Of a stretch of 28,848 bases of DNA, positions 514 through 28,694 are shown piece after piece. The notes below the pieces were generated by a model. It saw nothing but the letters and a program-made list of their open reading frames with translations. It was not told the DNA's origin and made no database searches. The translations under genes and the position numbers were made by a program. Source of the DNA: Treponema sp. GTDB lineage: Bacteria; Spirochaetota; Spirochaetia; Treponematales; Breznakiellaceae. Numbering within the stretch: position 1 is the first letter of the stretch; each line of letters opens with the position of its first letter. The stretch lies in contig JAIRSD010000089.1 of the NCBI GenBank assembly GCA_031255615.1, forward strand, positions 1-28,848. Reading direction: 5' to 3'.

Positions 514-659
514 ATGGGTTTTTGCCGGGCAAAAACCCATAACAAAAGACGGCATGGATACACGGCGAACCGCGCAAGGGATAGGAGCGGAATAAAAACC
601 CGCAGGGTTTTTGTTAGAGCGGATAGCCCGGTCCCCGGCCCGCGGCCGGGGATGCGCCC
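514..659 (-). repeat. Boxed hairpin element, copy E1
   Basis: Read on the minus strand, this is box A (652-659), hairpin, box B (621-631), hairpin, box C (571-584), distal hairpin. The A-B hairpin has arms TCCCCGGCC (632-640) and GGCCGGGGA (644-652) with loop cgc. The B-C hairpin has arms AAAAACCC (594-601) and GGGTTTTT (605-612) with loop gca. The distal hairpin has arms ATGGGTTTTTGC (514-525) and GCAAAAACCCAT (529-540) with loop cgg. The element lies between the incoming plus-strand gene and the end of mrfB. Confidence 0.85.
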
Positions 660-772
660 TAAAGAATCTCGACGGACGGCCTATGCCGTTTTTCCAAGAA
701 CCCTTCGGAAACTTCAGCTTCCGTGCAATAACCGCGTCTGATCTCAATTTCTAAAACGACGGGGCCGGAGGC

Positions 773-1975
773 TTAGGGCCGGCCCTTCTTCCGCGCCTTC
801 GCGGCCTTCCCCAGGAGCCGTTCCCGCCGGCCCGCCAGATCAAGCCGCAGTCCTTCGGGCATGTCCCGCCCCAGGGCCCGCTCCACCAGGTCCAGTGCCC
901 CCCCAATATCGCCGGTCCGCCATTCCGCCTCGACGGCCAGCTTCCGGCAGCACCGGGGATAGCCCAGGGCCGCCCCCCGTTCAAGCAGGTCCCTGGCCCG
1001 CCGAACTTCCTCCTCCCCGCGGCAGCCCCGGTCCAGGGCCCGCTGCCAGCAAAGGGCGAGCTGTTCCGGGTTTGCGGAAAACCGCGCCCCCTCCCCCAGG
1101 GGATCCGCCGCTATCCGGCAGAGGCAGGCGAGGATGGCGGCCATGCCCAAAATATCGCGGCAGTTGTGATCCCCAATGCGCAGAACCCCGGCGGGATTCC
1201 CGGTGCGCAGAAATTCGAACCACGCCTCGGGAGCGAAGGCCCCCGGCAGGTCCCCCTCCCTGCTCAACGAGAGAATTTCCGTTTCCACCGCCGCCTGGGA
1301 ACAGGAGGGCAGGACCCCCCGCCAAACCCTCCGGGCGCTGTGGAGCAGATCCAGGTGGTCAAAACCGGGGAGGCCCAGACCCAGCATCGTACAGCGGTTC
1401 CGCAGAATCGGGATGTCGAAGGTTTTGCCGTTGTAGCTGACCACCGTGGGCGGGGCCGCCGCGCCGGAATCCTCCCCCGCCCCCTTCCGGTCTTTTGCCG
1501 GATTCCCCAAGTCCCCCGCCAGGGATTCCAGGAACTCCCCCTCTCCGGGATAATCCAGCAGCAGGTACTGGACCACCCGAATCCGGCCCAAGCCCTTCCC
1601 GCCCTGTTCCAGGACCCCGACCGCCGCCAGGAACGGAAGGGTCCCGGCCCCGATGGAAAGCCCCGTTGTTTCCAGATCGAAAAAACGCAGCGATTCTGCG
1701 GGGATCCCCCCTCCCCCCGGCGCCAGGATTCCCAGGGCCGCCGGCAGGGTATGGGGCAGGGCAAGGGGGAGCCCCAGGGTCTGAGTCCGCCGCAGAACCA
1801 GGGCCCCCGATTCCGCCGGGGAAGCCGCCGGAATCCAGCCCCCCTTTTTGAAGGCGCCGGGGAGCCCGGCGGGGGCCGCCCGGGGAGCGGGAGAATTCTC
1901 TCCCTTCCCTTTCCCTGGCGTCCCGGCGGCGGGCCGCAGGCCGCGGATGCGGGATAATCGCGAACGTAGATCCAC
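773..1975 (-). CDS. mrfB: YprB/MrfB-like DEDD ribonuclease-H-fold exonuclease
   Basis: This protein belongs to the YprB (RNase_H_2) group of DEDD-type 3'-5' exonucleases. In Bacillus subtilis MrfB works with the helicase MrfA in repair of mitomycin C damage. Visible motifs are FDLETTGL (D100, E102) followed by GAGTLPFLAAVG, then SYNGKTFD (around 180-187), LDLLHSARRVW (208-218) and HNCRDIL (D274). Residues ~300-400 look like a short helical TPR-type tail. The start is GTG at 1973-1975, preceded by GGAGG at good spacing; an internal low-complexity stretch lies at ~155-175. The helicase partner is at 18658-21021 on the same strand, about 17 kb upstream in the transcription direction. The family call is firm. 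A role in interstrand crosslink repair here is inferred from the family. Confidence 0.88.
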   Translation of the reverse strand: MDLRSRLSRIRGLRPAAGTPGKGKGENSPAPRAAPAGLPGAFKKGGWIPAASPAESGALVLRRTQTLGLPLALPHTLPAALGILAPGGGGIPAESLRFFDLETTGLSIGAGTLPFLAAVGVLEQGGKGLGRIRVVQYLLLDYPGEGEFLESLAGDLGNPAKDRKGAGEDSGAAAPPTVVSYNGKTFDIPILRNRCTMLGLGLPGFDHLDLLHSARRVWRGVLPSCSQAAVETEILSLSREGDLPGAFAPEAWFEFLRTGNPAGVLRIGDHNCRDILGMAAILACLCRIAADPLGEGARFSANPEQLALCWQRALDRGCRGEEEVRRARDLLERGAALGYPRCCRKLAVEAEWRTGDIGGALDLVERALGRDMPEGLRLDLAGRRERLLGKAAKARKKGRP

Positions 1976-2008
1976 CGGCCTCCTCCGGAAAAAACTGTCC
2001 CCATATAA

Positions 2009-2039
2009 TCAGATAATCCGAATTCATATTACTATCTGA
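2009..2039. promoter_or_regulatory. AT-rich inverted repeat between mrfB and the transporter genes (operator candidate)
   Basis: TCAGATA (2009-2015) and TATCTGA (2033-2039) form a perfect 7-base inverted repeat with a 17-base centre. It lies in AT-rich DNA just upstream of mrfB and about 125 bases before the promoter of the divergent transporter operon. A protein-binding site is a guess from symmetry and location only. Confidence 0.3.
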
Positions 2040-2162
2040 ATATTATTACTATACAAGAAAGAATAGTATGTTTTACCGGCCCGCAAAATTTCAAGGGGGC
2101 CCGGCGGCGGCTTCCCAAAAAACGAAAAATTGAAAAATAGATTTTGATTATTGATTTTTGTG

Positions 2163-2191
2163 TTGACAATTCTGAAGACCAGACTTACTAT
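2163..2191 (+). promoter_or_regulatory. Sigma-70-type promoter of the transporter operon
   Basis: A perfect -35 TTGACA (2163-2168) is followed after exactly 17 bases by TACTAT (2186-2191), a 4/6 match to the -10 consensus. Transcription would begin near 2198, leaving a ~26-base leader that contains GGGAGG before the first permease ATG at 2224. The surrounding DNA is AT-rich against a GC-rich background. Confidence 0.7.
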
Positions 2192-2223
2192 AAGTAAAAT
2201 TTGGAAAGAGAACCGGGAGGACT

Positions 2224-3144
2224 ATGATGATTCATCTACCGAAATACCGATGGAAGGATTTTTCCGGGAACCGCTGGCTTTATTTTTTGCTTATTCCCGG
2301 TATCATCTATTTTGTTGTTTTCAGGTACATTCCTATCTTTGGCCTGCATATCGCCTTTATGGACTACAATCAGTACAACCCCTCGGATAGTAAATGGGTC
2401 GGTTTCGCGCAGTTCGCCAAACTGTTTTCAAGAAATTCCTTTGTCCCGGTCCTGCTCAACACCCTTAAAATCAGCACACTAAAGCTGTTTTGCGGCTTCC
2501 CTATCCCTATCATCCTCGCTTTGCTTATGAATGAAATGAAGATCCTCAATTTCAAAAAGATAGTCCAGACCCTGCTGTACCTCCCCCATTTTATCTCCTG
2601 GGTTATCATGGCCGGTATCTTGATGAACCTCCTGGATCCCTCCATCGGCCTCATCACCCAGATGTTCAGGTCCAGTTCCGGCGGGGGAAACCTGGTGATC
2701 ATGGCGGACAAAAAACTCTTCGTCCCCATGCTGATCATCTCGGACGTGTACAAGAGCATGGGCTGGGGCACGATAGTATACTTTGCCGCCATGAGCGGTA
2801 TAGACCCCCAGTACTACGAAGCGGCCGTCATGGACGGGGCGGGGAAACTCCGGCAGGCCCTGTCTATCACGGTGCCCACGATTCTCCCCACTATCATCAT
2901 TATGTTTATCCTCAGCCTGGGGAATATTCTTAACGCCGGATTTGAGCAGGTGTTCATGCTCTATTCCCCCCAGGTCTACGAGGTGGCCGACATTATCGAT
3001 ACCTATGTATACCGGATGGGTATCATCAGGAACGATTACGCCTTCAGCACCGCCGCGGGGATGTTTAAATCGGTGGTAGCCTTTATTCTCATTGTAACGG
3101 TGAACCAAATAGCCCGGGCTACCGAAAACCAGGGTATCTTTTAA
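2224..3144 (+). CDS. LplB-type sugar ABC transporter permease
   Basis: This is an inner-membrane permease of the binding-protein-dependent carbohydrate importer family (LplB/UgpA branch), likely moving an oligosaccharide or modified sugar. It has about six hydrophobic spans, starting with the one at ~18-42. The cytoplasmic EAA loop at ~199-211 (EAAVMDGAGKLRQ) is the contact site for an ATPase. At 306 residues it has the usual length. ATG at 2224 follows GGGAGG; a second ATG is the next codon. The second permease begins 20 bases after its stop, so the two are co-transcribed. No ATPase gene is present in the cluster, so a shared MsmX-like ATPase encoded elsewhere is expected. Confidence 0.93.
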   Translation: MMIHLPKYRWKDFSGNRWLYFLLIPGIIYFVVFRYIPIFGLHIAFMDYNQYNPSDSKWVGFAQFAKLFSRNSFVPVLLNTLKISTLKLFCGFPIPIILALLMNEMKILNFKKIVQTLLYLPHFISWVIMAGILMNLLDPSIGLITQMFRSSSGGGNLVIMADKKLFVPMLIISDVYKSMGWGTIVYFAAMSGIDPQYYEAAVMDGAGKLRQALSITVPTILPTIIIMFILSLGNILNAGFEQVFMLYSPQVYEVADIIDTYVYRMGIIRNDYAFSTAAGMFKSVVAFILIVTVNQIARATENQGIF

Positions 3145-3164
3145 TCTTTTAGGAGGAACCGAGA

Positions 3165-4100
3165 ATGAGTACTATGCTTGATACTTCTGCTACCCTGGCC
3201 CCCCCCCCCCGTGTTCAAATGAAGGTGGGAATATCCAAGGGAGAAAAAATATTTACCTGGTGCAATTACACTTTTTTTGTCGTCCTGTGTTTTGTTATGA
3301 CCTACCCCTTTTGGCACGTCGTTATGATGTCCCTGAGTTCTTCGGAAGCCACCCTCAAGGGGGGGCTTTTCCTTTGGCCAAAGGGTTTTAATCTGGACGT
3401 GTATGTCCAGGTCTTTAAAAACCCTCAAATCTACACCGGGTATCAAACGACCCTCATGGTTACTATTATCGGCACCCTCTTTGGGGTCCTTTTTACCGCC
3501 GCCACGGCCTACGCCCTGTCAAAAAAGTACCTGCCCTTTAGCTCCCTGCTTATGCTGCTGGTCCTCTTTACCATGATTTTTAACGGCGGCATGATTCCCA
3601 ATTACCTTCTTATCAAGAATTTGGGCCTTATCAACAACCGGCTGGCCCTTATCCTGCCGGGCCTGATAAACGCCTATAATGTTATCATTATGAAGACCTT
3701 TTTCATGTCCCTCCCCTCCAGTCTGGAGGAATCGGCGAAAATTGACGGGGCCAACGACGCATACATCTTCGTTTCCATTGTTATTCCCCTTTCAAAGGCG
3801 GTGCTGGCCACCATCGCCCTTTTCATGGCGGTAGGCTATTGGAACGACTTCTTTAGTACGGTCTTGTATATCAACGTCGGCGACAAGTGGTCCATGCAGG
3901 CGGTTCTTCGTTTCATGATCACCAACACCGCCGCCGCCTTCGCCCGGGCGGGCGTATCGGTCCAGGACTACACCAACGTAACCGAGGCGACCATCAAGGC
4001 CGGTTCCATCGTGGTAGCCACGGTGCCTATCCTCATCGTGTACCCCTTCCTTCAAAAGTACTTTGTCAAGGGCGTCATGCTGGGCAGCGTTAAAGGCTGA
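3165..4100 (+). CDS. YtcP/AraQ-type sugar ABC transporter permease
   Basis: This is the second permease of the importer (YtcP/UgpE branch). It has six predicted spans and a typical EAA loop at ~188-202 (EESAKIDGANDAYIF), and ends in the usual family manner (PFLQKYFVKGVMLGSVKG). The ATG at 3165 follows AGGAGG. Codons 12-16 are encoded by a run of 12 C (3199-3210), giving three prolines in a non-conserved cytoplasmic N-terminus. Loss of one C would give a stop at codon 19, and gain of one C would give a stop at 3389-3391, so length change in this tract would switch the protein off. The next possible ATG (3219) has no ribosome-binding site in front of it. Confidence 0.93.
   Translation: MSTMLDTSATLAPPPRVQMKVGISKGEKIFTWCNYTFFVVLCFVMTYPFWHVVMMSLSSSEATLKGGLFLWPKGFNLDVYVQVFKNPQIYTGYQTTLMVTIIGTLFGVLFTAATAYALSKKYLPFSSLLMLLVLFTMIFNGGMIPNYLLIKNLGLINNRLALILPGLINAYNVIIMKTFFMSLPSSLEESAKIDGANDAYIFVSIVIPLSKAVLATIALFMAVGYWNDFFSTVLYINVGDKWSMQAVLRFMITNTAAAFARAGVSVQDYTNVTEATIKAGSIVVATVPILIVYPFLQKYFVKGVMLGSVKG
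3199..3210 (+). repeat. 12-base poly-C tract inside the permease gene
   Basis: Twelve consecutive C residues lie 34 bases after the ATG of the second permease gene. They cover the end of codon 12 to the first base of codon 16. Tracts of this length are prone to slipped-strand mispairing. It is the longest homopolymer I noticed in the window. Confidence 0.9.
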
Positions 4101-4153
4101 GATTCCATAGGGGGAGGTAGTCCCCTTAATGAAACATTTTCTTGGAGGAAGCT

Positions 4154-5782
4154 ATGAAGAAATTCGTTGTACTGGCGGCAGTGGTGACGTTAGTCTCTCT
4201 GCTTGTGGGCTGCGGCGGCGGCGGCTCAACGAGCAGCGGCGGGGGGGCGGCGGTAACGCGGGACCCCAATGTCAAGGTGGACATTTTTGACAAGTCCCTA
4301 CCCAAAATGAAGGTAAGAGTAGCAACCCTTACCGGGTATACCATTCCCGACAGCCGGACGGAGAAATGGCTGGAAGATCGTTACAATATCGACATAGAAA
4401 TTGTCCCCCTCCCCGGAGCGTCGGAAGCTCCCGCCAAAACATCCCTGTTGATGGCCGATGATAAGGAACGGCCCGAAGTGGTGTGGTGGAGCGGTATGGA
4501 AGCGGACTTTTCCAAATGGAAGGACGCGGGGCTCCTGGTGGATCTGACGGATTACATGGATAAATACACCGTCATGCGGGATTATTACGACGGCCAGGAC
4601 CCCAGGATTATGTTCTACGCTTCCAGTTCCGGCGGCAGGGTGTTCAGGATTCCCGGCGACGTGTCCGAACCGGGCTGTGAAACCCTGTGGATCAGGAAAG
4701 ACTGGCTGGATAAATTGGGCCTCCCCATCCCCAAGACGATGGAGGAGTACAACGCGGCCCTCTACGCATTTACCAACAACGACCCTGACGGGAACGGGAG
4801 AAAAGATACCTACGGTCTGGGAGGCCAGGGAAACGACCTGCGGTCTTTCTGGCCCTGGCAGCAGGGCGCCGGTACCGGCCGCGGAAACGTGTACTTCCAG
4901 TTCGTAAAGATGCCCGACGGGTCCTACGAATTCTCCGGCGCCACCGAGGACACGAGAAAGTGGCTCGGGCAGGTCGCCCAACTCATGAAAGACGGCGTTA
5001 TTAACCCGAATGTCGTGGTTACCACCACCAACCGGAACGAGGAAATGGCCCGGGGCGGCTTCGGTTCCATGCATGCGTGGGTAGCCTGGAACAACCCCAA
5101 CACGACCTTCGATTCCTTCTACGCCACCAATCCTGACGCGGAGTGGATCCCCATCCGGATGCCCGCAGGCGACACTCCCGGAAACGACGGCTACGGCATT
5201 GAAAACGCCGGCTTCCTGAGCGCGTGGTGCTTCTTTGGGATCACCAAAAACGCCTCCGATCCCGAACGGCTTTACGCTATTTGGGATGATATGGGCGCGC
5301 CGGAACCCTACGTGATCAAGCGCTGGGGCATTGAAGGCCAGGAATACGTTACCAACCCCGACGGTTCCCACAACCTCATCATCCGCCCGGGCAGCAACGA
5401 AGCCCTGGAAAAGCAGATCGGCATTGACCTGTTCCACGATCTTTTCGCCCGGAAAGACGAGTACAACTTCTCCAACACCCCCGAAACGGTCCAGATCTTC
5501 GCGGATCGCACCAGGGACAGCCGCGCCGCCTACGATATTGGTATTGAGAAAAAAGATCCCAACATGTACACGGCCTGGAATGAATACGGCGCCGAACTCT
5601 TGGACATTCGGAACGCCTATATTTACAACGTTATCGGCGGCACCGAATCCATCAACGACTGGGACGCGTACATTGCCCGGCTTAAGGCCAACGGCCTGGA
5701 CCAGGTTCTCGATGAATTGAAAGAACTGTATCCGAAGCAGCAGGGAGAGGAGCGGACCTACCTGAGCTCCCGTGGTTTCTAG
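4154..5782 (+). CDS. Extracellular sugar-binding lipoprotein 1 (LplA-like)
   Basis: This is a large solute-binding protein of the family 1/LplA type, anchored outside the inner membrane as the receptor for the two permeases. A signal peptide (MKKFVVLAAVV...) ends in the lipobox LVGC with lipidated Cys20, followed by a glycine/serine linker. The segment NDPDGNGRKDTYGLGG (~210-225) resembles the calcium-binding loop found in many of these proteins. I chose ATG 4154, because a TTG 12 bases upstream overlaps the ribosome-binding site GGAGGAAG. The mature protein is about 520 residues, normal for LplA. The neighbouring gene is a close paralogue. The ligand cannot be read from sequence; the cluster context suggests a sugar or small glycoside. 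Confidence 0.92.
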   Translation: MKKFVVLAAVVTLVSLLVGCGGGGSTSSGGGAAVTRDPNVKVDIFDKSLPKMKVRVATLTGYTIPDSRTEKWLEDRYNIDIEIVPLPGASEAPAKTSLLMADDKERPEVVWWSGMEADFSKWKDAGLLVDLTDYMDKYTVMRDYYDGQDPRIMFYASSSGGRVFRIPGDVSEPGCETLWIRKDWLDKLGLPIPKTMEEYNAALYAFTNNDPDGNGRKDTYGLGGQGNDLRSFWPWQQGAGTGRGNVYFQFVKMPDGSYEFSGATEDTRKWLGQVAQLMKDGVINPNVVVTTTNRNEEMARGGFGSMHAWVAWNNPNTTFDSFYATNPDAEWIPIRMPAGDTPGNDGYGIENAGFLSAWCFFGITKNASDPERLYAIWDDMGAPEPYVIKRWGIEGQEYVTNPDGSHNLIIRPGSNEALEKQIGIDLFHDLFARKDEYNFSNTPETVQIFADRTRDSRAAYDIGIEKKDPNMYTAWNEYGAELLDIRNAYIYNVIGGTESINDWDAYIARLKANGLDQVLDELKELYPKQQGEERTYLSSRGF

Positions 5783-5805
5783 TCTTATGTTGATTTGATC
5801 CCTCG

Positions 5806-5835
5806 CCCGTCCCGGACGCCCCTGTTTGGGACGGG
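5806..5835 (+). terminator. Stem-loop between the two binding-protein genes
   Basis: CCCGTCCC (5806-5813) pairs with GGGACGGG (5828-5835), an 8-bp GC-rich stem with a 14-base loop. It lies 23 bases after the stop of lipoprotein 1. There is no U-run after it, so it is more likely an attenuating or mRNA-stabilising hairpin than a full terminator. It would raise the level of the first lipoprotein message over the genes downstream. Confidence 0.4.
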
Positions 5836-5886
5836 TCAATTTAAAAACGGTTCTCCAGCGGCGTTAGGGTATACAGGAGAGAAATC

Positions 5887-7512
5887 ATGGAAAAAAGGGC
5901 TTCGATCGCGGCGGTAGTTTTGGCAGCCTTCGCGCTGCTATCGGCGTGCGGCGGGAACTCGCGGGCCTCTACCGGCGGACCGGCGGTCTCCAGCAGATCT
6001 CCAAACGAAAAAGTTGATGTCTTAAATCAACCCGAAAAGATGCGCCTTAAGGTGGTAACCCTCCAGGGTTATACCCAGAGCGACAGCCGGACGGAGAAAT
6101 ACCTTGAAGATCGGTACAACATCGACATGGAAGTAGTCGCCCTCCCTGGTTTTTCCGAGGTGGCTACAAAAGTGTCGCTTATGATGGCCGACGACAATGA
6201 ACGGCCCGATATTATTTGGTGGGACACCCGCAGAATGATTGCCGATTTTTCAAAATGGCTGGACGCGGGCTTACTGGTCGATCTAACCGACTATATCAAC
6301 AAATATACGGTTATTCGGGATTATTATGACAGCCAGGACCCCCGGATTATGTTTTACGCCCAAAGCGAAGGGGGGAAGACCTACCGCATACCCGGAGATA
6401 TTTCAGAGCCGAGCTGCGAAACCCTTTGGATAAGGAAAGACTGGCTGGATAATCTGGGCATCGAGGTTCCCAAAACCCTCGCGGAGCTGGAACAGGTGAT
6501 GTACCAGTTTACCTTTAACGATCCCGACGGGAACGGCAGGAACGACACCTACGGATTGGGGGGCGACGGCTACGAATTGCGGTCCTTCTGGCCCTGGCTC
6601 CAGGGTTCGGGGGCCAACCGGAATCACTATTATTTCGATTTTACAAAAATGCCCGACGGAACCATCGCCTACGCCGGCAGCACCGACGATATGAAACTTG
6701 CCATTGGACGGATTGCAAAATTGTACAAGGACGGGGTCATTACCCCCAACATCGTTACGGATACGAACGGGAATGAGGAAATGGCCCGGGGCGGGTTTGG
6801 GGTTATCCACCGCTGGATAGCGTGGAACAATCCTTCCGCGGTAGCGATGCGGTCCTTCTACGCAACCAACCCCGACGCCCTGTGGATCCCCTTTGATCCG
6901 GTAGCCGGCGATAACGGCAACGGCCAGGCTAATCCTGAAAAATTAAGCGCCTGGTGTTTCTTCGCTATTACCAAAAACTGCGCGGATCCTGAACGGGCAT
7001 ACGCCATCTGGGACGATATGGTAAGCCCGGATCAGTATATCATAAGAAGATTCGGGATTGAGGGCCAGGAATATGTTGCCAACCCCGACGGTTCCCATAC
7101 AATCCTTATTTCCTCCCAGGCCAATGAAAATCTGGCGAATAACCTTGGCATCAATCTATTTCAGGATCTTGTCGGGAGGAAAGACTTCTGCAATATCGGC
7201 AACACCCCCGAAACGGTGGATCTTTTCAAACGGATGTCCGAGGGCAGCCGGGATTCCTACGCTCTGGTGGTCGAAAAAAAGGACCCAAGTAAATATGTCG
7301 TATGGAATGATCTGGGAAGTGAGATTACCGACGTGCGGGACGCTTATCTGTGGTCGGTGATCTCCGGAACGGACTCTTTGGACAACTGGGACGGGTACCT
7401 GGCGAATTTAAAGGCCGCCGGCCTGGATGAAGTCTTGGAGGAAATAAACAGGCTGTACCCCGAGGAGGATCGGGAAATGCAGACCTATCTGGCCTCCCGG
7501 GCCGCCAGGTAA
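5887..7512 (+). CDS. Extracellular sugar-binding lipoprotein 2 (paralogue of 1)
   Basis: This is a second LplA-type solute-binding lipoprotein with lipobox LSAC and lipidated Cys21. It aligns along its full length with lipoprotein 1. Shared stretches include the SRTEK.LEDRYNID segment, ADFSKW.DAGLLVDLTDY, ETLWIRKDWLD, the DPDGNGRNDTYGLGG calcium-type loop, NEEMARGGFG and the EGQEYV.NPDGSH segment. It is clearly a tandem duplicate that has diverged. The start ATG at 5887 follows AGGAGAG. The two receptors probably serve the same permease pair with different ligand preferences, but that is inference. The kinase gene starts 37 bases after its stop. Confidence 0.92.
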   Translation: MEKRASIAAVVLAAFALLSACGGNSRASTGGPAVSSRSPNEKVDVLNQPEKMRLKVVTLQGYTQSDSRTEKYLEDRYNIDMEVVALPGFSEVATKVSLMMADDNERPDIIWWDTRRMIADFSKWLDAGLLVDLTDYINKYTVIRDYYDSQDPRIMFYAQSEGGKTYRIPGDISEPSCETLWIRKDWLDNLGIEVPKTLAELEQVMYQFTFNDPDGNGRNDTYGLGGDGYELRSFWPWLQGSGANRNHYYFDFTKMPDGTIAYAGSTDDMKLAIGRIAKLYKDGVITPNIVTDTNGNEEMARGGFGVIHRWIAWNNPSAVAMRSFYATNPDALWIPFDPVAGDNGNGQANPEKLSAWCFFAITKNCADPERAYAIWDDMVSPDQYIIRRFGIEGQEYVANPDGSHTILISSQANENLANNLGINLFQDLVGRKDFCNIGNTPETVDLFKRMSEGSRDSYALVVEKKDPSKYVVWNDLGSEITDVRDAYLWSVISGTDSLDNWDGYLANLKAAGLDEVLEEINRLYPEEDREMQTYLASRAAR

Positions 7513-7549
7513 AATGATGTTTCTTCATACAAAAAGGATAGCTTAGGTC

Positions 7550-8518
7550 ATGGTAGATGTAGTGGGATTAGGTCATCCGGTGATGGATCAACTGGTCAAT
7601 ATTTCCCGCTTTCCAGGCGGCAACAGCGGTACCCGGGCGGAAGAAATTTTTCATCAGGGCGGGGGCAATGTCGCAACCGCCATGGCGGCGGCGGCGAGGC
7701 TTGGGGCAAAGGCCGGAATGATCGCGAAGATCGGCGGCGACGCCATCGGCGACTTTATTATCAAGGACTTTAAATATAACGGGGTGGATACTTCCCGTAT
7801 TTTGCGGGACGGCCCCCAGTCCCACAGCGCCTTTGTCATTGCCGTGTCGGAAATCGAATACGGAACCCGCGCGTTTATTGGCAGAGGCGGCGCCAGGGCA
7901 AGCCCCCTTCTGCCGGAAGAGATTGATTACGATTATATCGCCTCCGCAAAGATCCTGCATTTGGAAAACGGGGGCCCCGCTTCAACCGCGGCGGCCCGTT
8001 TCGCGCGGGACAGGGGCATCAAAGTCTGTATTGACGCCGGTTACTATTCGGAAGACCGGGTCGAAATAATACCCCATATAGATATCTTTATTGCCTCGGA
8101 AATGTTCTACAACGTCATGTTCAAGGGACGGGAGGCGGATATCCAAAAAAACTGCGAGGAAATTCATAACGCCGGTCCTTCCGTGGTATGGGTAACCTAC
8201 GGGGCCAAGGGCTGCGTCGGGCTTGTTGACGGCCGGTTTTATGAGGTGCCCACCTTTGACGTTCCGGTAAAGGACACCACCGGCGCCGGGGATGTCTTTC
8301 ACGGGGCCTATATTGCGGCCATGCTGGAAGGTTTACCCCACCCCGAATGCGCCCGGTATGCCAATGCGGTTTCCTCTATCAAATGTATGTTTGTCGGGGG
8401 AAGAACGGGGATTCCGACCCGGGAAACCCTGGGCCGTTTTTTGGAGGACGGTACAATCCTTACCGAGGAGATCGAGGGCCGGCTGGACTATTACCGAAGG
8501 AGTTTTCTGGAAAATTAA
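7550..8518 (+). CDS. PfkB-family sugar kinase
   Basis: This cytoplasmic kinase of the ribokinase/PfkB fold is predicted to phosphorylate a ketose or similar sugar with ATP. Diagnostic motifs are the N-terminal GGGN (37-40), TYGAKG (216-221) and DTTGAGDVF (242-250), with the catalytic base D248. Its 322 residues are normal for the family. The ribosome-binding site is weak (AAAAGGATAG), but the start ATG 7550 fits the family's N-terminus. Its place between receptor genes and an epimerase, upstream of an isomerase and an aldolase, makes it the probable kinase of an isomerase-kinase-aldolase route. The substrate is unknown; the IolC, FruK-like and YihV-like subgroups cannot be told apart from sequence alone. 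Confidence 0.88.
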   Translation: MVDVVGLGHPVMDQLVNISRFPGGNSGTRAEEIFHQGGGNVATAMAAAARLGAKAGMIAKIGGDAIGDFIIKDFKYNGVDTSRILRDGPQSHSAFVIAVSEIEYGTRAFIGRGGARASPLLPEEIDYDYIASAKILHLENGGPASTAAARFARDRGIKVCIDAGYYSEDRVEIIPHIDIFIASEMFYNVMFKGREADIQKNCEEIHNAGPSVVWVTYGAKGCVGLVDGRFYEVPTFDVPVKDTTGAGDVFHGAYIAAMLEGLPHPECARYANAVSSIKCMFVGGRTGIPTRETLGRFLEDGTILTEEIEGRLDYYRRSFLEN

Positions 8519-8557: not shown

Positions 8558-8579
8558 TTCGGGGGCTTCAGCCCCCGAA
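8558..8579. other. Perfect GC-rich hairpin between kinase and epimerase genes
   Basis: Arms TTCGGGGGC (8558-8566) and GCCCCCGAA (8571-8579) flank the loop ttca. The stem can be extended by GTTGT/ACAAC with a small bulge. It sits in the 183-base gap before the next gene. No U-tract follows. A weaker, imperfect stem (AGTCC.../...GGACT) follows at 8622-8642. Confidence 0.6.
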
Positions 8580-9587: not shown

Positions 9588-9711
9588 GGGCGCATTTTTT
9601 TGCGGCTCCGCCGCAAAAAAACCGGGCTATCCGCTCCAATTCCCCGCCCCCGCGGGGGCGGGGAATTCCGCTTCTATCCCTTGCGCGGGCGAAAGCCGTG
9701 CCGGCTTTCGC
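9588..9711 (+). repeat. Boxed hairpin element, copy E2
   Basis: The order is box A GGGCGCAT (9588-9595), hairpin, box B (9622-9632), hairpin, box C (9674-9687), distal hairpin. The first hairpin has arms TTTTTTTGCGGC and GCCGCAAAAAAA (9595-9606, 9610-9621) with loop tcc. The B-C hairpin is a perfect palindrome, 9638-9667, of the AATTCCCCGCCCCC type. The distal hairpin has arms GCGAAAGCCG and CGGCTTTCGC (9689-9698, 9702-9711) with loop tgc. It fills most of the 373-base gap 9485-9857, which has no gene. Confidence 0.9.
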
Positions 9712-14479: not shown

Positions 14480-14549
14480 GGTTCCGGGGTTCAATACCCC
14501 GGAACCGCCCTGGATAGAGTTTGTCTACAAGGCAGCCGACTTTGTAGAC
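14480..14549. other. Two consecutive hairpins in the gap before the oxidoreductase gene
   Basis: The first has arms GGTTCCGGGGT (14480-14490) and ACCCCGGAACC (14496-14506), an 11-bp perfect stem with loop tcaat. The second has arms GTCTACAA (14523-14530) and TTGTAGAC (14542-14549). Between them CTGGATAG resembles the start of box B read on this strand. There is no U-tract, so termination is not obvious. Confidence 0.6.
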
Positions 14550-17002: not shown

Positions 17003-17010
17003 TACCCTGA

Positions 17011-18406: not shown

Positions 18407-18579
18407 CCTTGGACTTTGCGCGGAGCGCAAAGTCCAAGGCCCGCCGGGACATTCCCCAGGTTTTTGCGAAGCAAAAACCCGCCCGCGCAAGGGATAGAAG
18501 CGGAATTCCCCGCCCCCAGAGGGGGCGGGGAATTGGAGCGGATAGCCCGGTTTTTGCGGCCCGCCGCAAAAATGCGCCC
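18407..18579 (-). repeat. Boxed hairpin element, copy E3
   Basis: Read on the minus strand, the order is box A (18572-18579), box B (18540-18550), box C (18484-18497). The A-B hairpin has arms TTTTTGCGGC and GCCGCAAAAA (18551-18560, 18563-18572). The B-C hairpin has arms AATTCCCCGCCCCC and its complement (18504-18517, 18521-18534) with loop aga. Two distal hairpins follow: GGTTTTTGC/GCAAAAACC (18459-18467, 18471-18479; loop gaa) and a perfect 15-bp stem (18407-18421 with 18425-18439; loop gga). It occupies the 297-base gap between the convergent MFS and helicase genes. Confidence 0.92.
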
Positions 18580-21257: not shown

Positions 21258-21442
21258 TGAGTTTTGGCGGGGGGCGCCAAAACTCACGGATTCAAAAACG
21301 GTAGGGCTGCGGAGGCGTTCGCGCAAGGGATAGGAAGGGTGCGGAGCAGCCACGCCGGAGGCGGGGCCGGAGCGAAGCGCAGCCCTGGATAGCCCGGTCC
21401 CCGGCCGCAGGCCGGGGATGCGCCCCTCATATCTTCGATATG
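21258..21442 (-). repeat. Boxed hairpin element, copy E4
   Basis: On the minus strand, box A is 21418-21425, box B 21387-21397 and box C 21320-21333. The A-B hairpin has arms TCCCCGGCC and GGCCGGGGA (21398-21406, 21410-21418; loop gca), as in E1. The B-C slot holds a long GC-rich module (~21337-21386) that matches the one in E5. A distal hairpin has arms TGAGTTTTGGCG and CGCCAAAACTCA (21258-21269, 21275-21286). A small hairpin CATATC-ttc-GATATG (21428-21442) abuts box A. Confidence 0.88.
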
Positions 21443-22909: not shown

Positions 22910-23036
22910 GAAAAACCTTCCGGGCCTTTTTCATCCTTATTTCCGCGGCCGGCGGCCTCCCTTTCGTGGAGGGCGTAAAGGGGAAGCGGCAATGCCGAAT
23001 TTGCGGCAGGGGGCCGGGGATGCTGAACGGGGGATC

Positions 23037-25625
23037 TTAAAGGGGGACCGCTAAACCCTCGTTCCTGGGGACGGCAGGGAGGGGGGCTTTGCCGTACAGA
23101 GTGATTTTTCCCCGGCGGCCGTTGACGTTGAACACCGTGCCGGGAGGCCATCCGCCGTCCAGGATAAGCGCGGACAGGGGATCTTCCAGTTCCTTCTGGA
23201 TGGCCCGGCGCATGGGGCGGCCGCCGAATTTAGGGTCCCATCCTTTTTCGATAAGCAATTTTCTGGCCCCCGGAAGGATCATAAGGCCGTAGCCCTGTTC
23301 CGCAAGCCGGTCCTCCAATTCCCGGACCTGGAGATCGAAGATCGCCCCAATCTGTTTCCGATCCAGGGGCTGAAAGACCACCACATCGTCTACCCGGTTA
23401 AGGAATTCGGGGTTAAAAAGCCGGCGTAATTCCCCCAGGGCCTGGGTTTCAATTTCCCGGCTATCCAGGGTCCCCTGCCCCGCGGAAAAACCCAGCCGGG
23501 AATCCCGGTGAATTTCCCGGGCCCCCGCGTTGCTGGTCATAATGATCACCGTGTTGCGAAAACTGACGGTATGGCCCAGGTTGTCCTTGAGTTCCCCCTC
23601 CTCCATCACCTGCAAAAGGAGGTTAAACACGTCCCGGTGGGCCTTTTCGATCTCGTCAAAAAGAATCACCCGGTAGGGATTCCGCCGGATCCGTTCGGTC
23701 AGGACCCCTCCTTCCTCGTAGCCTATGTATCCCGGCGGGGCCCCCACCATGCGGGAAGCGTTATGCTTTTCCATGTAATCCGACATATCGATCCGCACCA
23801 GGGATTCTTCGCCGCCAAAGAGATAGCGGGCCAACTGTTTGGCAAGCAGGGTTTTACCGACTCCGGTGGGGCCCAGGAAGATAAAGGTCCCCAGGGGCCG
23901 GCGGGGATGGGCAATGCCCGCCCGGGAACGGCGCACCGCATTGGCGATCCGCCGGACCGCCTCGTCCTGGCCGACAACCGATTTATGGAGTTCCCCTTCG
24001 ATACCCAAAAGCCTGCGGGATTCCCGCTCCTCCAGCCGTTGAAGGGGAATCCCCGTTAATTCCGCCACGACCCGGCGGATATCCCCCTCGTCCACCCGGA
24101 CCGCCTCGGTTTGGGAGGCCCGTTCCCAGGCCGACTGCAGGGTCTGCAATTTATCCCGCAAAGTCCGCACCCGATCCCGCAGTTCCGCCGCCCGCTCGTA
24201 ATCCTGGGTGCTTGCCAGGGCGTTTTTTTCCTCGATGAGGAGCCGTATTTCCGCTTCAATGCCGGAAACTTCCGGGGGCTGGCTTATCTTCTCCAGTTTC
24301 CGCATGGCCCCGGCTTCATCCAGAATATCAATAGCCTTATCCGGCATATAACGGCCGCTTATGTAACGCCGGGCCAACTTGACCGCCAATTCCACCGCTT
24401 CCGGCGAATAGGATACGTGGTGGCAGTCTTCGTACTTCTTCTGTATACCCTTGAGAATCTCCAGGGTATCCGCGGGGTCCGGTTCTTCTACCAGAATAAC
24501 CTGGAAGCGCCGTTCCAGGGCGGCGTCCCTTTCAAAGTACCGGCGGTACTCCGTCAGCGTTGTGGCGCCGATACACTGAATATCCCCCCGGGAAAGGCCC
24601 GGTTTGAGCATGTTGGAGGCGTCAACGGTTCCCTCCGCCCCGCCGGCGCCGATGATCGTGTGTATTTCGTCGATAAAGAGGATCACGTTTCCCGCCTGGG
24701 AAATCTCTTTCATGATCTTCCTGAGCCGTTCTTCGAATTCTCCCCGGTACTTCGTTCCCGCCACCACGGAACCCATATCCAGGGAAAGAATGCGTTTCCC
24801 CGCCAGGGCCGCCGGGGCATCCGCTCCTGCCAGAAGCTGGGTGATGCCCTCCACGATGGCGGTTTTACCGACCCCGCTTTCCCCCACAAGAATGGGGTTA
24901 TTCTTGGTCCTGCGGGCAAGGATCCTCACCGCCCGGTCAATCTCCCTTTGGCGGCCCACCACGGGGTCGAGTTTTCCCCCCTTGGCAAGCTCGGTAAGAT
25001 CCCGGGAGAATTCGTCCAATGTCGGGGTAAGCGCCGGGTATGCGCCGGAGCCAAGGCGGGGGCCGCGGACTTTATGCTCCCCCTCCCGGTGGTAGGACCA
25101 TCTCTGGTACGCAGCCTGGGGAGCGCCGGCGGATTCAAAACCGGCGCCCCAGGAGGATCCAAAGGTATTCCCATCGCTCTGGGGATTCCGGCTGAAGGTG
25201 GTCCGAACCACCACCCGCAGCATCTCCGTATCCACCCCATGCCGGGAAAGGTAGCCCTGAACCGCGGCTCCCGGCTCCCGGCTCCCGGCAAAGAGAAGAT
25301 GCTCGGTCCCCAGGTAATCGCTGCCCATGGTACGGGCTTCCTCGGCGGCGGTATCCAGGAGTTTTTTTATCCGCGGGGAAGGGGGCGCTTCACCGTTGAT
25401 CGGAGCGGCGGCGGCCTGGGGAATCCTCGATTCCAAGGTATGGCGGAATTCCAGGAGATCGATCCGTAAAAATATGAGGGCCTTGCAGGCAATTCCCGCC
25501 CCCTCCTTAAGGAGGGCGATAAGCACATGCTCCGGGAGGACCTCCCCCGAATTAAGGCGGCGGGCTTCCCGCGGGGCCGCAATGGATAGGATTCTCTGAA
25601 CCCGCTGGGTTAAGCCTTTAAACAA
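23037..25625 (-). CDS. clpC: ClpC-type AAA+ protease ATPase
   Basis: This hexameric unfoldase feeds ClpP. In order it has a Clp N-domain (1-~145), a linker, AAA domain 1 with Walker A GESGVGKT (248-255) and Walker B ILFIDE (315-320), a UVR-type coiled coil (~473-500, YERAAELRDRVRTLRDKL) that marks ClpC rather than ClpA, and AAA domain 2 with GPTGVGKT (585-592) and VILFDE (653-658). The ClpP-docking tripeptide LGF is at 711-713. It has 862 residues. The start is TTG at 25623-25625, because FKGLTQRVQRIL is the standard N-terminus. This start overlaps the end of the DUF192 gene by 8 bases, so translation is coupled. Confidence 0.94.
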   Translation of the reverse strand: MFKGLTQRVQRILSIAAPREARRLNSGEVLPEHVLIALLKEGAGIACKALIFLRIDLLEFRHTLESRIPQAAAAPINGEAPPSPRIKKLLDTAAEEARTMGSDYLGTEHLLFAGSREPGAAVQGYLSRHGVDTEMLRVVVRTTFSRNPQSDGNTFGSSWGAGFESAGAPQAAYQRWSYHREGEHKVRGPRLGSGAYPALTPTLDEFSRDLTELAKGGKLDPVVGRQREIDRAVRILARRTKNNPILVGESGVGKTAIVEGITQLLAGADAPAALAGKRILSLDMGSVVAGTKYRGEFEERLRKIMKEISQAGNVILFIDEIHTIIGAGGAEGTVDASNMLKPGLSRGDIQCIGATTLTEYRRYFERDAALERRFQVILVEEPDPADTLEILKGIQKKYEDCHHVSYSPEAVELAVKLARRYISGRYMPDKAIDILDEAGAMRKLEKISQPPEVSGIEAEIRLLIEEKNALASTQDYERAAELRDRVRTLRDKLQTLQSAWERASQTEAVRVDEGDIRRVVAELTGIPLQRLEERESRRLLGIEGELHKSVVGQDEAVRRIANAVRRSRAGIAHPRRPLGTFIFLGPTGVGKTLLAKQLARYLFGGEESLVRIDMSDYMEKHNASRMVGAPPGYIGYEEGGVLTERIRRNPYRVILFDEIEKAHRDVFNLLLQVMEEGELKDNLGHTVSFRNTVIIMTSNAGAREIHRDSRLGFSAGQGTLDSREIETQALGELRRLFNPEFLNRVDDVVVFQPLDRKQIGAIFDLQVRELEDRLAEQGYGLMILPGARKLLIEKGWDPKFGGRPMRRAIQKELEDPLSALILDGGWPPGTVFNVNGRRGKITLYGKAPLPAVPRNEGLAVPL

Positions 25626-26115
25626 CTATTTCCCCTGCCGTGGATGATGATACTATTCCGTCCAACACCAAGCGATCCCCCGCGGCTATGCCCGCCCGGT
25701 CAAACCATCCCTGGGGTACTTCCAGGGCGTAACGGACCCCCCGGGAGGAACGGATCGGGCTTTCATCCAGGGGCCGCATATCCCGAATCTCCAGGATGCT
25801 CCCGTCAGACTTGATGTAGGCGATGGAAAGGGGGATAAGGGTGTTCTTCATCCAAAAGGACATGATCTGATCCCGGTCGAAGACAAAGAGCATGCCCCGG
25901 CCTTCGGCAAGATCCTTCCGGTACATAAGGCCCTGTTGTCTTTCCCCCGCGCTGCGGGCAATCTCCGCCCGGAGCGTTACCGCCCCGCCCGCCGCCCGCA
26001 GGATTGTCAGTTCACGTAATTCCAGGCCCTTCGCCTTGCCGCCGCAGGCGCCGCCGGTAAACAGGAGGACGAAGAAGGCCGCCGTCAACAATCCGTTAAA
26101 ACGTTTAAAGGGCAT
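25618..26115 (-). CDS. DUF192 secreted or lipid-anchored protein
   Basis: This is a 165-residue member of the DUF192 family, small exported proteins of unknown role. The N-terminus is a signal peptide (AAFFVLLFTGGAC) with Cys24 as a possible lipidation site in a relaxed lipobox. The domain shows the conserved GLMYRKDLAEGRGMLFVF block, the FWMKNTLIPLSIAYI block (about 90-105), the basic-loop region and a VLEVPQGW-like end (ALEVPQGWFDRAGI). ATG 26113-26115 overlaps the end of the preceding gene by 11 bases, and clpC overlaps its own 3' end. It probably sits in the cell envelope. No enzymatic function should be assumed. Confidence 0.88.
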   Translation of the reverse strand: MPFKRFNGLLTAAFFVLLFTGGACGGKAKGLELRELTILRAAGGAVTLRAEIARSAGERQQGLMYRKDLAEGRGMLFVFDRDQIMSFWMKNTLIPLSIAYIKSDGSILEIRDMRPLDESPIRSSRGVRYALEVPQGWFDRAGIAAGDRLVLDGIVSSSTAGEIVV

Positions 26116-26629
26116 CGATAAATTCCTGGCGCATCAACAATTCCTGGGTCTTCTCCACGGAAGAGTCGCCCACAATTCCGTCAAAGATCTCCAGATCGAT
26201 ATACTTTACCGTCAAGGGGCGTTCCAGGGCCAGCCGGACACCGCCGTTCTCCCAGACCGACTGCCGGGGGCTCAGATCCGTGGGTTCCCCATACTTTCCC
26301 GTCAGGGCGGTAAAGACCGAATAGTAATCAACAAGATCGGTGTTCATCGAAAAGGCCATAATAAAAAGCTCCCCCCCGTGGAGCTGAAAGAAGGCCCGTT
26401 TGACAAAGGAAAGGCCCGTGGTTTCTACCAAATACTGCTGGGGGTCGGGCAGGAAGGACACGTCCCGATCCCCCCGGAAGCTGAACAAGCCGTCCTCCGC
26501 CAGGGCGGTTTTGAGTTCCTCTAAGGACATCCCCAGGCTCAGACCCCTAAATTGCCGGGGCGGTTCCTGGGCTTCCAGAGGGCGGCAGAGCAGGAAGGCG
26601 AGCAAGACCAAGGGTATTGATACACGCAT
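26105..26629 (-). CDS. Exported hypothetical protein
   Basis: I do not recognise this 174-residue protein. It begins with a signal peptide (MRVSIPLVLLAFLLCRPLEAQ) with likely cleavage after LEAQ. The mature part has FRGLSLGMSLEELKTALAEDG, a pattern seen in envelope proteins that sense or bind small ligands, then an F.F.GGELF-type strand and a YSVFTALTGKYGEP motif, and ends with KTQELLMRQEFIDAL. The ribosome-binding site is weak. It overlaps the DUF192 gene by 11 bases and lies 133 bases after recA, so it is probably the head of the hyp-DUF192-clpC unit. A periplasmic location is inferred. Confidence 0.75.
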   Translation of the reverse strand: MRVSIPLVLLAFLLCRPLEAQEPPRQFRGLSLGMSLEELKTALAEDGLFSFRGDRDVSFLPDPQQYLVETTGLSFVKRAFFQLHGGELFIMAFSMNTDLVDYYSVFTALTGKYGEPTDLSPRQSVWENGGVRLALERPLTVKYIDLEIFDGIVGDSSVEKTQELLMRQEFIDAL

Positions 26630-26732
26630 ACTAACTTATCGGCCTTTTTATTCCGTTTATTCGCTGCCCCGCGGCTTCGGACGATTGTATTGGGGATAAA
26701 ATATTGAATCCCCGGCCGGGTGCATTCCCCGG

Positions 26733-26762
26733 AGAGGGGGGCCCTTTTCCGGCCCCCCCTCT
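26733..26762 (-). terminator. GC-rich hairpin at the 3' end of recA
   Basis: AGAGGGGGGCC (26733-26743) pairs with GGCCCCCCCTCT (26751-26762) with a one-base bulge, immediately after the recA stop codon. No U-run follows on the minus strand, so termination would be partial or factor-dependent. It separates recA from the next gene on the same strand. Confidence 0.45.
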
Positions 26763-28256
26763 CTAAAACAGGGCATCCCCCCCGCCTCCCTCGGGAGCAG
26801 CCTTCCGGGGACGCCCGGGCCCCCGGTGGGGGGCTTCTCCGGCAGGCCCGGGGGCCGGGGAGATAGGATGAGCGGGCCGCGGCGCGGCGGCCGGCGGCCG
26901 GGGAGCGGCGGCGGGGGGGCGGCCCGGACCACGGCGGAGCGGAGCTTCCACCGGACCGGGAGCCGGCGGGGGGGCCGGGGAAACAGCCGCCCTTTTGGGG
27001 GCCTCCGCTTTGGGCGGCGGGGCGGATTCTTCGACCAGGGCGGCCGGGGCCTCAAGGGGGCCGCCGGCCGCCGGAGGAACAGGGGCTTCCGGAGCCGGAT
27101 CGGCGGACGGATCCGGCTCCGGCGCGGCGGCTTCCGCGGAATCGGGGGCCGTCCGGGCTGGACCCGCCCCCTGAGCGGAGGCCGCCGCCGCCTTTTCCCG
27201 GGAAAAATCCCGGCCGGGGAACATGAGCTTCCGTATCTTCTCCTCAAGTTCCCGGGCAAAGGCGGAATTCTGGTCCAGGTATTCCCGGGCGCTGTCCCTG
27301 CCCTGGGCTATCTTCTCTTCCCCCCGGGAGTACCAAGCCCCCTTCTTGTCAATAAGGGCGTACTTGACCGCCGCGTCCAGAAGGCTGGCGGTGGCGGAGA
27401 CCCCCTTGCCGAAGATCACCTCCAGTTCCGCCCGGCGGAAGGGGGGGGCCACCTTGTTCTTTACCACCTTGACCCGAACCCGGTTTCCCACCGCGTCCGT
27501 ATCTTTCCCCCCTTCAATCGTTTCGGTCTTGCGGACTTCCAGCCTTACGGAGGAATAGAACTTCAGGGCGTTGCCCCCGGTCGTCGTTTCCGGATTGCCG
27601 AACATGATCCCAATCTTCATACGAATCTGGTTGATAAAGATGAGGATGGTCCGGGATTTACCGATGATGGCGGTGAGTTTCCGCATGGCCTGGCTCATAA
27701 GCCGGGCCTGAAGCCCCATCTGGGCGTCCCCCATATCCCCGTCAATTTCCGCCTGGGGAGTTAAGGCGGCGACGGAGTCCACCACGATCACGTCCACCGC
27801 CCCGGAGCGGACCAAATTCTCCGTGATTTCCAGGGCCTGTTCCCCGGAATCCGGCTGGGACACCCAGAGTTCGTCGATATTGACCCCCAGATTTTTCGCG
27901 TAGACCGGGTCCAGGGCGTGCTCGGCGTCCACAAAGGCGGCGATGCCCCCCAGCTTCTGGGCCTCCGCGATGGCGTGGAGCGCCAGGGTGGTCTTGCCCG
28001 AAGACTCCGGGCCGTATATCTCGATGATCCTCCCCCGGGGGTAGCCGCCGATCCCCAGGGCCTCGTCCAGCAGGATGGACCCCGAAGGGATCACCTCGAT
28101 CCCCGCCGCGCTGCCGGCGTTCCCCAGTTGGATGATGGAACCGGCCCCAAATTGTTTTTCTATTTGGAGACGGGCCGCTTCCAGGGCCTTCTTTTTGTCC
28201 TCCGCGGAAGCCAGAGGATCCCCCCTGGATTTTTCATTCTCGCTGACCTTTGCCAT
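26763..28256 (-). CDS. recA: RecA recombinase with long Pro/Ala-rich, AT-hook-like tail
   Basis: This is the strand-exchange ATPase that searches for homology. The RecA core (1-~350) is standard: Walker [10 protein letters not shown] (82-90), Walker [11 protein letters not shown] (156-165), INQIRMKIG (209-217) with the flexible loop, and TTGGNALKF (225-233). Residues ~351-497 are a low-complexity tail rich in Pro and Ala, with two near-repeats, RRGPGRPP (441-448) and HRGPGRPRK (477-485), which resemble the GRP core of AT-hooks. The protein is 497 residues; many bacterial RecAs are about 350. ATG 28256 follows AAGGGG. The tail's reading frame is open throughout, with no frameshift seen. The tail's function is inferred only from motifs. 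Confidence 0.95.
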
Positions 28257-28523
28257 AATTTACCCCTTCGAGACTCTCTCAAAACCTCAATTTTGGGAGC
28301 TTTGTCTTAAAATTGCAAGGAAAACGGCCCTAAACCGCTCCCCATGTCTTTCTCCAAAACCGGGCGCATTGTGAGGAAGGCTCTTTATATAGGGCCCCGT
28401 CCCGCATGGCGATTCATTTTTCACAAAAAATAATAAATTTTACGGATTCTTTCTACCTGATCCCGCCCTGCCCGCATGATTCAGCCGGGTTCAGTTCGGA
28501 CAGCCCATGCACCGTATGTTTTT

Positions 28524-28694
28524 GGGCGCATTTTTTGCGGCTCCGCCGCAAAAAACCGGGCTATCCGGGGCTGCGGCTTCGCCTCCGGCCCCGGCGCTTC
28601 GCGCCGGGTCTGCTCCGCACCCCTCCTATCCCTTGCGCGGGGCGAAAGCCTGCGGCGGTCGCCTTCTGAGCTGGCGCACTCCGTGCGCCAGCTC
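28524..28694 (+). repeat. Boxed hairpin element, copy E5
   Basis: Box A is 28524-28531, box B 28556-28566 and box C 28626-28639. The A-B hairpin has arms TTTTTTGCGGC and GCCGCAAAAAA (28531-28541, 28545-28555; loop tcc). The B-C slot has a long GC-rich module, similar to E4, with an internal CCCGGCGC-ttc-GCGCCGGG stem (28590-28608). A distal hairpin has arms GAGCTGGCGCAC and GTGCGCCAGCTC (28668-28679, 28683-28694; loop tcc). With AT-rich DNA at 28410-28450 it fills the 490-base gap 28257-28746; no gene is seen there. Confidence 0.92.

Follow-up and report, generated by a model that had tools for sequence, protein, structure and literature searches.

Five composite repeats in a Treponema contig

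The window analysed here, meaning the whole stretch of 28,848 bases of Treponema sp. contig JAIRSD010000089.1 (assembly GCA_031255615.1), contains five loci at which three short boxes recur, and a first-pass annotation had proposed that they form a family of composite elements in which conserved linkers alternate with non-conserved but self-complementary inserts. The element at these loci is a three-way junction, consisting of a closing stem (P1), an arm that corresponds to a known Rfam hairpin (P2) and a second hairpin arm (P3), and its core is the Rfam family Flavo-1 (RF01705). Read in the Flavo-1 orientation, the boxes follow one another as GCGCAAGGGATAG (long), GGATAGCCCGG (middle) and ATGCGCCC (short) in five of five loci, on the + strand at loci 1, 3 and 4 and on the - strand at loci 2 and 5, with inserts that vary. 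The repeat family is thus real, and the combination of conserved linkers with variable, self-complementary inserts was borne out across loci. With matches counted on both strands at no more than one mismatch, the long box was confined to the five loci, and the middle and short boxes occurred at 9 and 33 places in the window, respectively, the five loci included.

The window holds 16 perfect hairpins (arms of at least 9 bases, loops of 3-9), 13 of which fall inside the five loci, that is, within 800 bases or 2.8% of the sequence (binomial p about 3e-18), compared with 1, 1, 0, 2 and 0 in five shuffles of the whole window in 300-base blocks. Perfect hairpins are thus concentrated in the five loci well above chance. 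The claim that nearly every slot is a perfect palindrome held for the slot between the middle and short boxes (P3), with perfect arms in all five loci, and in part for the slot between the long and middle boxes (P2), which is perfect in loci 2 and 3, has an 8-bp perfect arm in locus 1, and in loci 4 and 5 takes a branched form with imperfect pairing. Outside the window, 67 of 68 distinct spirochaete sequences could be scored, and in 57 of these the P3 slot is a palindrome with perfect Watson-Crick pairing. One or two extra hairpins lie 5' of the long box at each window locus. The three perfect hairpins found outside the elements are at 8558-8579, 14480-14506 and 27089-27122.

Locus 2 (9588-9686, - strand) is the only copy in the window to exceed the Flavo-1 cut-off, at 42.8 versus 42 bits, and comprises the 5' strands of P1 and P2 (9674-9686), the P2 tip (9633-9673), the P2 3' strand (9622-9632), the P3 hairpin (9596-9621) and the P1 3' strand (9588-9595). 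Locus 3 (18485-18579, + strand; 39.9 bits), found by Rfam match and box scan, has the same parts at 18485-18497, 18498-18539, 18540-18550, 18551-18571 and 18572-18579. Locus 1 (572-659, + strand; 21.4 bits) was found in the same way, its P1 being placed by the pairing rule of divergent copies; here the 5' strands span 572-584, the P2 tip 585-620, the P2 3' strand 621-631, P3 632-651 and the P1 3' strand, ATGCGCCC, 652-659. Loci 4 and 5 gave no Flavo-1 match up to E 10, have the same outer boxes, and carry a branched P2 tip. In locus 4 (21321-21425, + strand) this tip occupies 21334-21386, followed by P3 at 21398-21417 and the P1 3' strand at 21418-21425, and locus 5 (28524-28638, - strand), found by box scan, is made up of 5' strands (28626-28638), branched tip (28567-28625), P2 3' strand (28556-28566), P3 (28532-28555) and P1 3' strand (28524-28531). 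A hairpin scan placed the upstream hairpins, each on the strand of its element, at 514-540 for locus 1 (+, 12-bp arms), at 9689-9711 for locus 2 (-, 10-bp arms, GCA loop on the element strand), at 18407-18439 (GGA loop) and 18459-18479 (GAA loop) for locus 3 (both +), and at 28667-28695 for locus 5 (-, 13-bp arms, GGA loop on the element strand). The corresponding hairpin of locus 4, GAGTTTTGG..CCAAAACTC (21258-21286, +), resembles by eye the middle hairpin of the Rfam family TD-2.

The genes around the elements are ordinary chromosomal ones, to judge from a Pfam scan of ten window proteins (transporters, a helicase, a glgC-type protein, Clp and RecA among them), none of which is a transposase, and no tRNA or tmRNA was found in the window. 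To survey the neighbours of related copies, 369 near and 301 far open reading frames were clustered, and the 30 largest clusters, viewed by eye, contained no transposase; the largest (14 frames, 6 of them near) looks like transporters. Both results agree with the earlier remark that no transposase lies nearby.

The conserved core: Flavo-1 within a three-way junction

The Rfam model of Flavo-1 has 76 positions and covers the P2 arm only. In loci 1-3 the P2 stem, with its two GNA/GGA-type internal loops, aligns to this model, and in loci 4 and 5 the outer P2 strands are kept and the inner tip is different. From the sequence read together with the Rfam structure line, both sides of P2 carry the 8-mer GNAGCGGA or a close variant; when this 8-mer pairs with itself, two Watson-Crick pairs at the centre are flanked by G/A-rich 3x3 loops.

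The closing stem came to light in divergent copies, in which substitutions in the initial five bases of the long box are matched by substitutions at the partner bases of the short box. We read nine such P1 types in all, three of them within the single genome G001 (GCGCA/TGCGC, GCGCG/CGCGC and GCGCC/GGCGC), the others being CGGAC/GTCCG, GGGTT/AACCC, GCGAA/TTCGC, GCGAT/ATCGC, GCGTT/AACGC and GCGTG/CACGC. Among copies that do not begin with GCGCA, an exact complement of the five bases lies within 120 bases after the core in 25 of 31, as against 32 of 554 control pairings that used five bases taken from another copy; several of the 31 are related, one is a false element (CAGTC) and three are out-of-register CGCAA rows, all of which were counted, and two of the 25 matches (L037 and L110) look like chance. 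For all copies the figures are 124 of 140 and 226 of 1,091. Pairs within P2 also vary in a compensatory way; two positions were compared in 35 Flavobacterium-group copies with a pairing score of at least 5, giving AT 18, TA 8, GC 8 and CG 1 at the first and AT 17, TA 8, CG 5, GC 3 and TG 2 at the second, an absence of mispairs that is partly built in because partners were chosen by pairing score.

Since P1 covaries and a second hairpin lies beyond the Rfam arm, the element is a three-way junction, with P1 closing it, the Rfam hairpin as P2 and the hairpin between the middle and short boxes as P3. The long box pairs both with the short box (in P1) and with the middle box (in P2), and the boxes are therefore base-paired, contrary to the first-pass suggestion that folding of a single strand leaves them exposed. 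What is conserved is the fold and the junction strands only, namely a short closing stem, a P2 arm with two G/A-rich 3x3 loops between direct GNAGCGGA repeats, and a P3 that is mostly a perfect hairpin.

Because its core is a known Rfam family, the element is not of a new kind. In one reading of long-box matches 147 of 221 were kept. A pattern scan of named genomes returned at least 119 stretches, mostly from Treponema, Spirochaetaceae and other spirochaete assemblies; other sources among the stretches listed are Flavobacterium, Chryseolinea, other Bacteroidota, one Clostridiales bin and one Myxococcales bin, the last with a stretch that lacks the downstream boxes and a genome (G012) that has no Rfam match. 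With the Rfam model, 12 of these genomes gave at least 138, 150, 11, 74, 80, 111, 4, 1 and 36 matches, none, at least 13, and none, respectively, counts that may be low because no more than 150 candidates were scored in each. Under stricter filters, Flavo-1 occurs in 113 of 121 Flavobacterium-group genomes and in 17 of 198 Spirochaetota genomes. The projection of hundreds of copies per genome, made from the density in the window, is thus upheld by related genomes that reach at least 150 matches and by the high proportion of positive genomes in the Flavobacterium group. Plasmid and phage records contained no match to locus 3; in viral contigs 22 stretches match a shorter pattern, most of them unrelated by eye, with L131 and L139 looking like true copies.

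Two kinds of longer unit were noticed by eye in the course of this reading. Long Flavo-1 variants with an inner hairpin that shares GACC..AGGAA occur at L210, L216 and L217 (Flavobacterium group), at L048, and at L226 and L229 (Spirochaetota), and these variants, present in two phyla, may be the full-length form of the element. In one Spirochaetales bin, L024, L111 and L119 hold Flavo-1 copies within a longer repeat that starts GAGCCTGTTTAATATCTTG and that in L111 ends in an inverted AACAGGCTC, an arrangement resembling a miniature inverted-repeat transposable element (MITE) that carries the Flavo-1 element along.

Hairpin tips and the history of individual sites

The tips of the hairpins differ between orthologous elements. 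Upstream of trmD, elements at the same place carry at least six unrelated, self-complementary tips across species (L183/L184/L201, L185/L186, L187, L192, L196 and L204), and in L204 a CAG/CTG pair is flipped to CTG/CAG. This set comprises 30 loci, the best matches to one species; a pattern search recognised an element in 15 of them, at sites that are not all the same, and flanks were compared by eye. In a 110-kb syntenic block shared by the genomes G006 and G243 of two Flavobacterium-group species, whose aligned blocks are 75-95% identical (mostly 83-92%), six of six copies of one species have a counterpart in the other, one of them decayed, and here the tip apex is exchanged in two copies and slightly changed in one. 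For one differing pair, the tip in G243 is that of other Flavo-1 copies in G006. All four matches to this tip motif in 586 kb (at most one mismatch, one place being listed twice) lie inside Flavo-1 elements, as do five of six matches to a second tip motif; CTGAACTTGTTTCAG, the third motif, has free occurrences elsewhere in the genome as well.

Within genome G001 the P2 and P3 tips assort independently, the same P3 hairpin being found with different P2 tips and the reverse, as seen in 41 rows, at least four of which read a copy for the second time (53 elements whose P3 is palindromic were returned, with some duplicate readings). The window hints at the same reassortment. Loci 2 and 5 share an almost identical P3 hairpin and loci 1 and 4 share identical P3 arms, yet within each pair the P2 tips differ. 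The hairpin tips would in this case be replaceable modules that move between copies, with the boxes serving as homology and gene conversion as the probable route of the swap. Tip replacement at shared sites offers a natural record of palindrome turnover in bacterial genomes.

Two window loci could be followed in relatives. In G004, the nearest relative found (helicase 87% identical), a copy named L241 lies beside the end of the helicase gene, at a distance of about 36 bases as compared with 79 for locus 3. It agrees with locus 3 in side and orientation and differs from it in both hairpins. It is probably the orthologue of locus 3, an assignment that falls short of certainty because the flanks align only partly and the MFS neighbour was not found there. 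None of the other loci among the 30 fetched has a true copy within 400 bases of the helicase gene end, L242 offering 202 bases for the comparison; a pattern match near that end in L264 proved on reading not to be an element. The helicase and glgC genes, which flank locus 4, are both present in the locus in 24 of 30 fetched relatives. The gap between them measures 86-410 bases in these 24, compared with about 600 in the window, and at up to three mismatches it contains a long box in none of the 24, a middle box in two and a short box in one. Given the absence of the long box, locus 4 is specific to the window lineage among the relatives compared, with insert edges that cannot be read exactly.

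The acting strand, mobility and known systems

On balance we think it probable that these elements are dispersed DNA repeats, similar to repetitive extragenic palindromic (REP) sequences, that fold as single-stranded DNA and are mobilised in trans by an enzyme encoded elsewhere. Copies would spread as DNA in the manner of REP or MITE repeats, the fold would most likely act when its strand is exposed as single-stranded DNA, and the folded strand would be recognised by a nuclease or recombinase encoded at some other place in the genome.

Two asymmetries bear on which strand is folded and in which nucleic acid. Wobble pairs were scored in three hairpin sets (32 of 35, 66 of 66 and 67 of 68 hairpins; distinct spirochaete strings of 11-69 bases), and G.T was counted against A.C at 10 versus 1 in Flavobacterium-group tips and 6 versus 1 in spirochaete P3 hairpins. 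Triloops located 3' of the long box (n=138) are GNA in 65 cases and TNC in 12, those 5' of it (n=83) in 28 and 12, and those elsewhere (n=63, arbitrary strand) in 12 and 6, the scan having required arms of 7 inside or upstream of elements and longer arms, of 9, elsewhere. Over 106 distinct hairpins the counts are 43 and 10 (p about 6e-6); 64 of 65 GNA loops are closed by a C-G pair. Tetraloops (n=95) include 7 GNRA, 12 GNNA, 3 TNNC and no TTCG. RNA is not known to have a stability bonus for GNA mini-hairpins. In DNA, according to the portion of PMC4686876 consulted, GNA and GNNA loops with at least two G-C pairs form extraordinarily stable mini-hairpins, and the same type of loop argument was applied in the opposite direction by Weinberg and co-workers to the STAXI motif (PMC2864571, in part). 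The wobble bias in these two sets and the triloop bias together speak for selection on one of the strands, and the type of loop suggests that the strand is DNA. A comparison of folding energies between sense and antisense strands was discarded, as unpaired G in the cut strings may bias it and the DNA parameters are equal for GNA and other triloops; its output had the sense strand more stable in 63 of 68 P3 strings with DNA parameters and in 19 of 68 with RNA parameters.

The main rival takes the Rfam label at its word, holding that the element is a transcribed structured RNA, either a small RNA (sRNA) or a cis element, whose tips vary by compensatory evolution and whose copies are dispersed like mobile RNA elements. 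The strand-specific excess of G.T over A.C in two of the three hairpin sets, the covariation in P1 and P2, and a three-way junction with purine-rich internal loops are all compatible with it, as is the report, in the part of PMC9723704 consulted, that several structured 5' regions of transcripts in F. psychrophilum coincide with Flavo-1 matches. The same part of that paper, however, describes matches in sense and antisense indistinctly, many of them outside the structured transcribed regions, and other observations also argue against an RNA. Spirochaete loops are C(GNA)G rather than GNRA or UUCG, and tip apices are replaced between close relatives. Upstream, little sequence is conserved apart from a C in the 5' flank (56 and 65%). 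Nor do the elements prefer an orientation relative to genes, since among 35 copies 17 lie in tandem contexts (7 sense, 10 antisense), 16 in divergent ones (many of which are trmD orthologues), one in a convergent context and one inside a called open reading frame. As far as sequence can tell, the weakly conserved 5' flank, the neutral orientation and the placement in F. psychrophilum do not fit the independent RNA gene implied by the Rfam type 'Gene; sRNA', and we regard the RNA account as unlikely. If most copies are DNA repeats, the sRNA annotation misleads counts of regulatory RNAs in Bacteroidota and Spirochaetota.

A second alternative, which we consider improbable, is that these are old palindromes without function or dedicated mobility, their arms perfected by template-switch correction and their tips reshuffled by ordinary recombination. 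Perfect Watson-Crick arms with few wobbles (the 57 of 67 P3 sequences above) would be expected from such a process, and arms do change in step among related tips while shared positions stay stable. Against this stand the lineage-specific locus 4, the strand asymmetry of loops and wobbles, and the covariation of the P1/P2 junction outside the tips; the asymmetry and the covariation together imply selection on one folded strand, at least formerly.

Least likely, indeed very improbable in our judgement, is that the elements form a classical REP family and owe their movement to a REP-associated tyrosine (Y1) transposase. Similar dispersal and single-strand palindromes might suggest this, as might the Y1 genes, which occur in 8 of the 11 genomes searched and, within the copy-rich Flavobacterium-group genomes, in 26 of 32. 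Against it count the 6 of 32 copy-rich genomes without a Y1 match, the 4 of 8 Flavo-1-negative genomes that have one, and the absence of a GTAG or CGTC foot. In the Treponema bin G002, 6 of 12 Y1 loci (30 kb in total) have a long- or middle-box match at 2-3 mismatches, where the Rfam density of the genome (at least 150 in 2.7 Mb) predicts about 1.7 and the window density (5 in 28.8 kb) about 5, which leaves room for a weak association with Y1; the Rfam model matches one of 11 scanned G002 loci (L164) and one of five in G006 (L159), the latter within about 1.5 kb. A linked REP-type or HUH nuclease, which the first-pass annotation had proposed to look for, was thus not found. The Y1 loci themselves hold two further observations. 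L154 (1089, 1312, 2018) and L156 (1340) of G006 contain a different palindromic repeat, GCGCAGAATTGCATTCTGTGC and variants, likely to form with the Y1 gene a REP/transposase pair of its own, which is a further point against Y1 as the partner of Flavo-1. In G002 a Y1 transposase gene is present in about ten copies (L152, L155, L157, L158 and L160-L165) with open frames of 143-223 aa, lengths that we take to be unusual for the REP-associated type.

Several results weigh against a mobile DNA repeat of the kind we favour. No mobilising enzyme was found, and neither a target-site duplication nor an empty site with exact boundaries was read. All six copies in the 110-kb syntenic block are shared, so that mobility there must be old or nil. 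Replichore strand bias is absent in the one genome compared with dnaA as origin (51 versus 57, p 0.63), the best free split being reached by 19 of 300 shuffles. In spirochaete P2 tips the wobble count is reversed, at 3 G.T versus 28 A.C; 26 of 27 C.A cells there fall at one recurring internal-loop position, and the three hairpin sets taken together without that position give 19 versus 4. Finally, no triloop occurs among 23 scored hairpins of Flavobacterium-group tips, so that the DNA loop signature is confined to spirochaetes and is not family-wide.

The flanks may preserve something of how the repeats spread. In 119 spirochaete copies the 3' flank reads CC followed by A in 66, 70 and 76%, and in 34 Flavobacterium-group copies it reads GCTCC, T (85%) and then A (71-100%) over five positions, A-rich rather than T-rich in both phyla, a pattern that may reflect either a preferred target or the way in which the copies were inserted. 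With more reserve, as a tentative and rather unlikely extension of the favoured DNA-repeat reading, the elements might constitute a class of mobile element filed as an sRNA, a single-stranded DNA three-way junction unit with hairpin cassettes interchangeable among hundreds of copies in Bacteroidota and Spirochaetota, to be mobilised by a new nuclease or recombinase that recognises junctions. The full three-way junction is a proper target for finding a partner protein.

Among known systems, MITEs are marked by terminal inverted repeats with a target-site duplication; the ends of the present elements pair over 5 bp but vary between copies, and no duplication was read. REP sequences of the GTAG and CGTC types, with their RAYT transposases, are likewise high-copy intergenic palindromes, and the part of PMC3733652 consulted reports CGTC REPs in Bacteroidetes and Spirochaetes as well, without a dedicated transposase. 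There, REPs are palindromes of 20-40 bp tagged by a tetranucleotide, whereas the units in the window are three-way junctions of 88-115 bases in which the junction is conserved and the stems are not. In place of a GTAG or CGTC foot at the stem base, the conserved ends are GCGCA..TGCGCCC or TAGCCC..GCTCC.

Integron attC sites, which have consensus ends of the GTTRRRY type, work in a similar way, in that conserved boxes on a folded strand pair with each other and enclose a palindrome that varies. Compared by eye with that consensus, the elements described here have no such ends, and the Flavo-1 copies viewed are dispersed except for one run in G433 (C1:2587333-2644178; L225-L227), where eight copies on the same strand are set among large genes in 57 kb; of 10 proteins scanned from its central 20 kb, 2 carry RHS repeats. 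This run had prompted an attC reading, which was dropped because it sits among large genes and forms no array of small cassettes.

TD-2 (RF03162) is a separate hairpin array that has no window match up to E 10. At two loci of G002 (L165, 1183-1275; L166, 803-885) it immediately precedes a long box of Flavo-1 type, on the upstream side, and a third TD-2 match lies in L027 (5541-5623). The TD-2 hairpin loops are AUGGAU and ACGGAU, which resemble CsrA sites.

The closest relative remains Flavo-1 itself, which shares its boxes and internal loops with the P2 arm of the window elements. Absent from the Rfam model are the P1 closing stem, the P3 arm, the dispersal in high copy number without strand preference, and the differences between tips. 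A table in PMC2864571, consulted in part, lists the family's taxa as Bacteroidetes, whereas Spirochaetota also match here, and the consulted part of PMC9029176 counts it among the most abundant sRNA families and gives no function. In the literature searched, including that on GNA loops and TD RNAs and in part seen as excerpts, we found no description of Flavo-1 as a DNA repeat. As far as these searches show, what is new is that P1 and P3 complete a three-way junction, that tips are exchanged at shared sites and assort independently, and that a case can be made for DNA over RNA.

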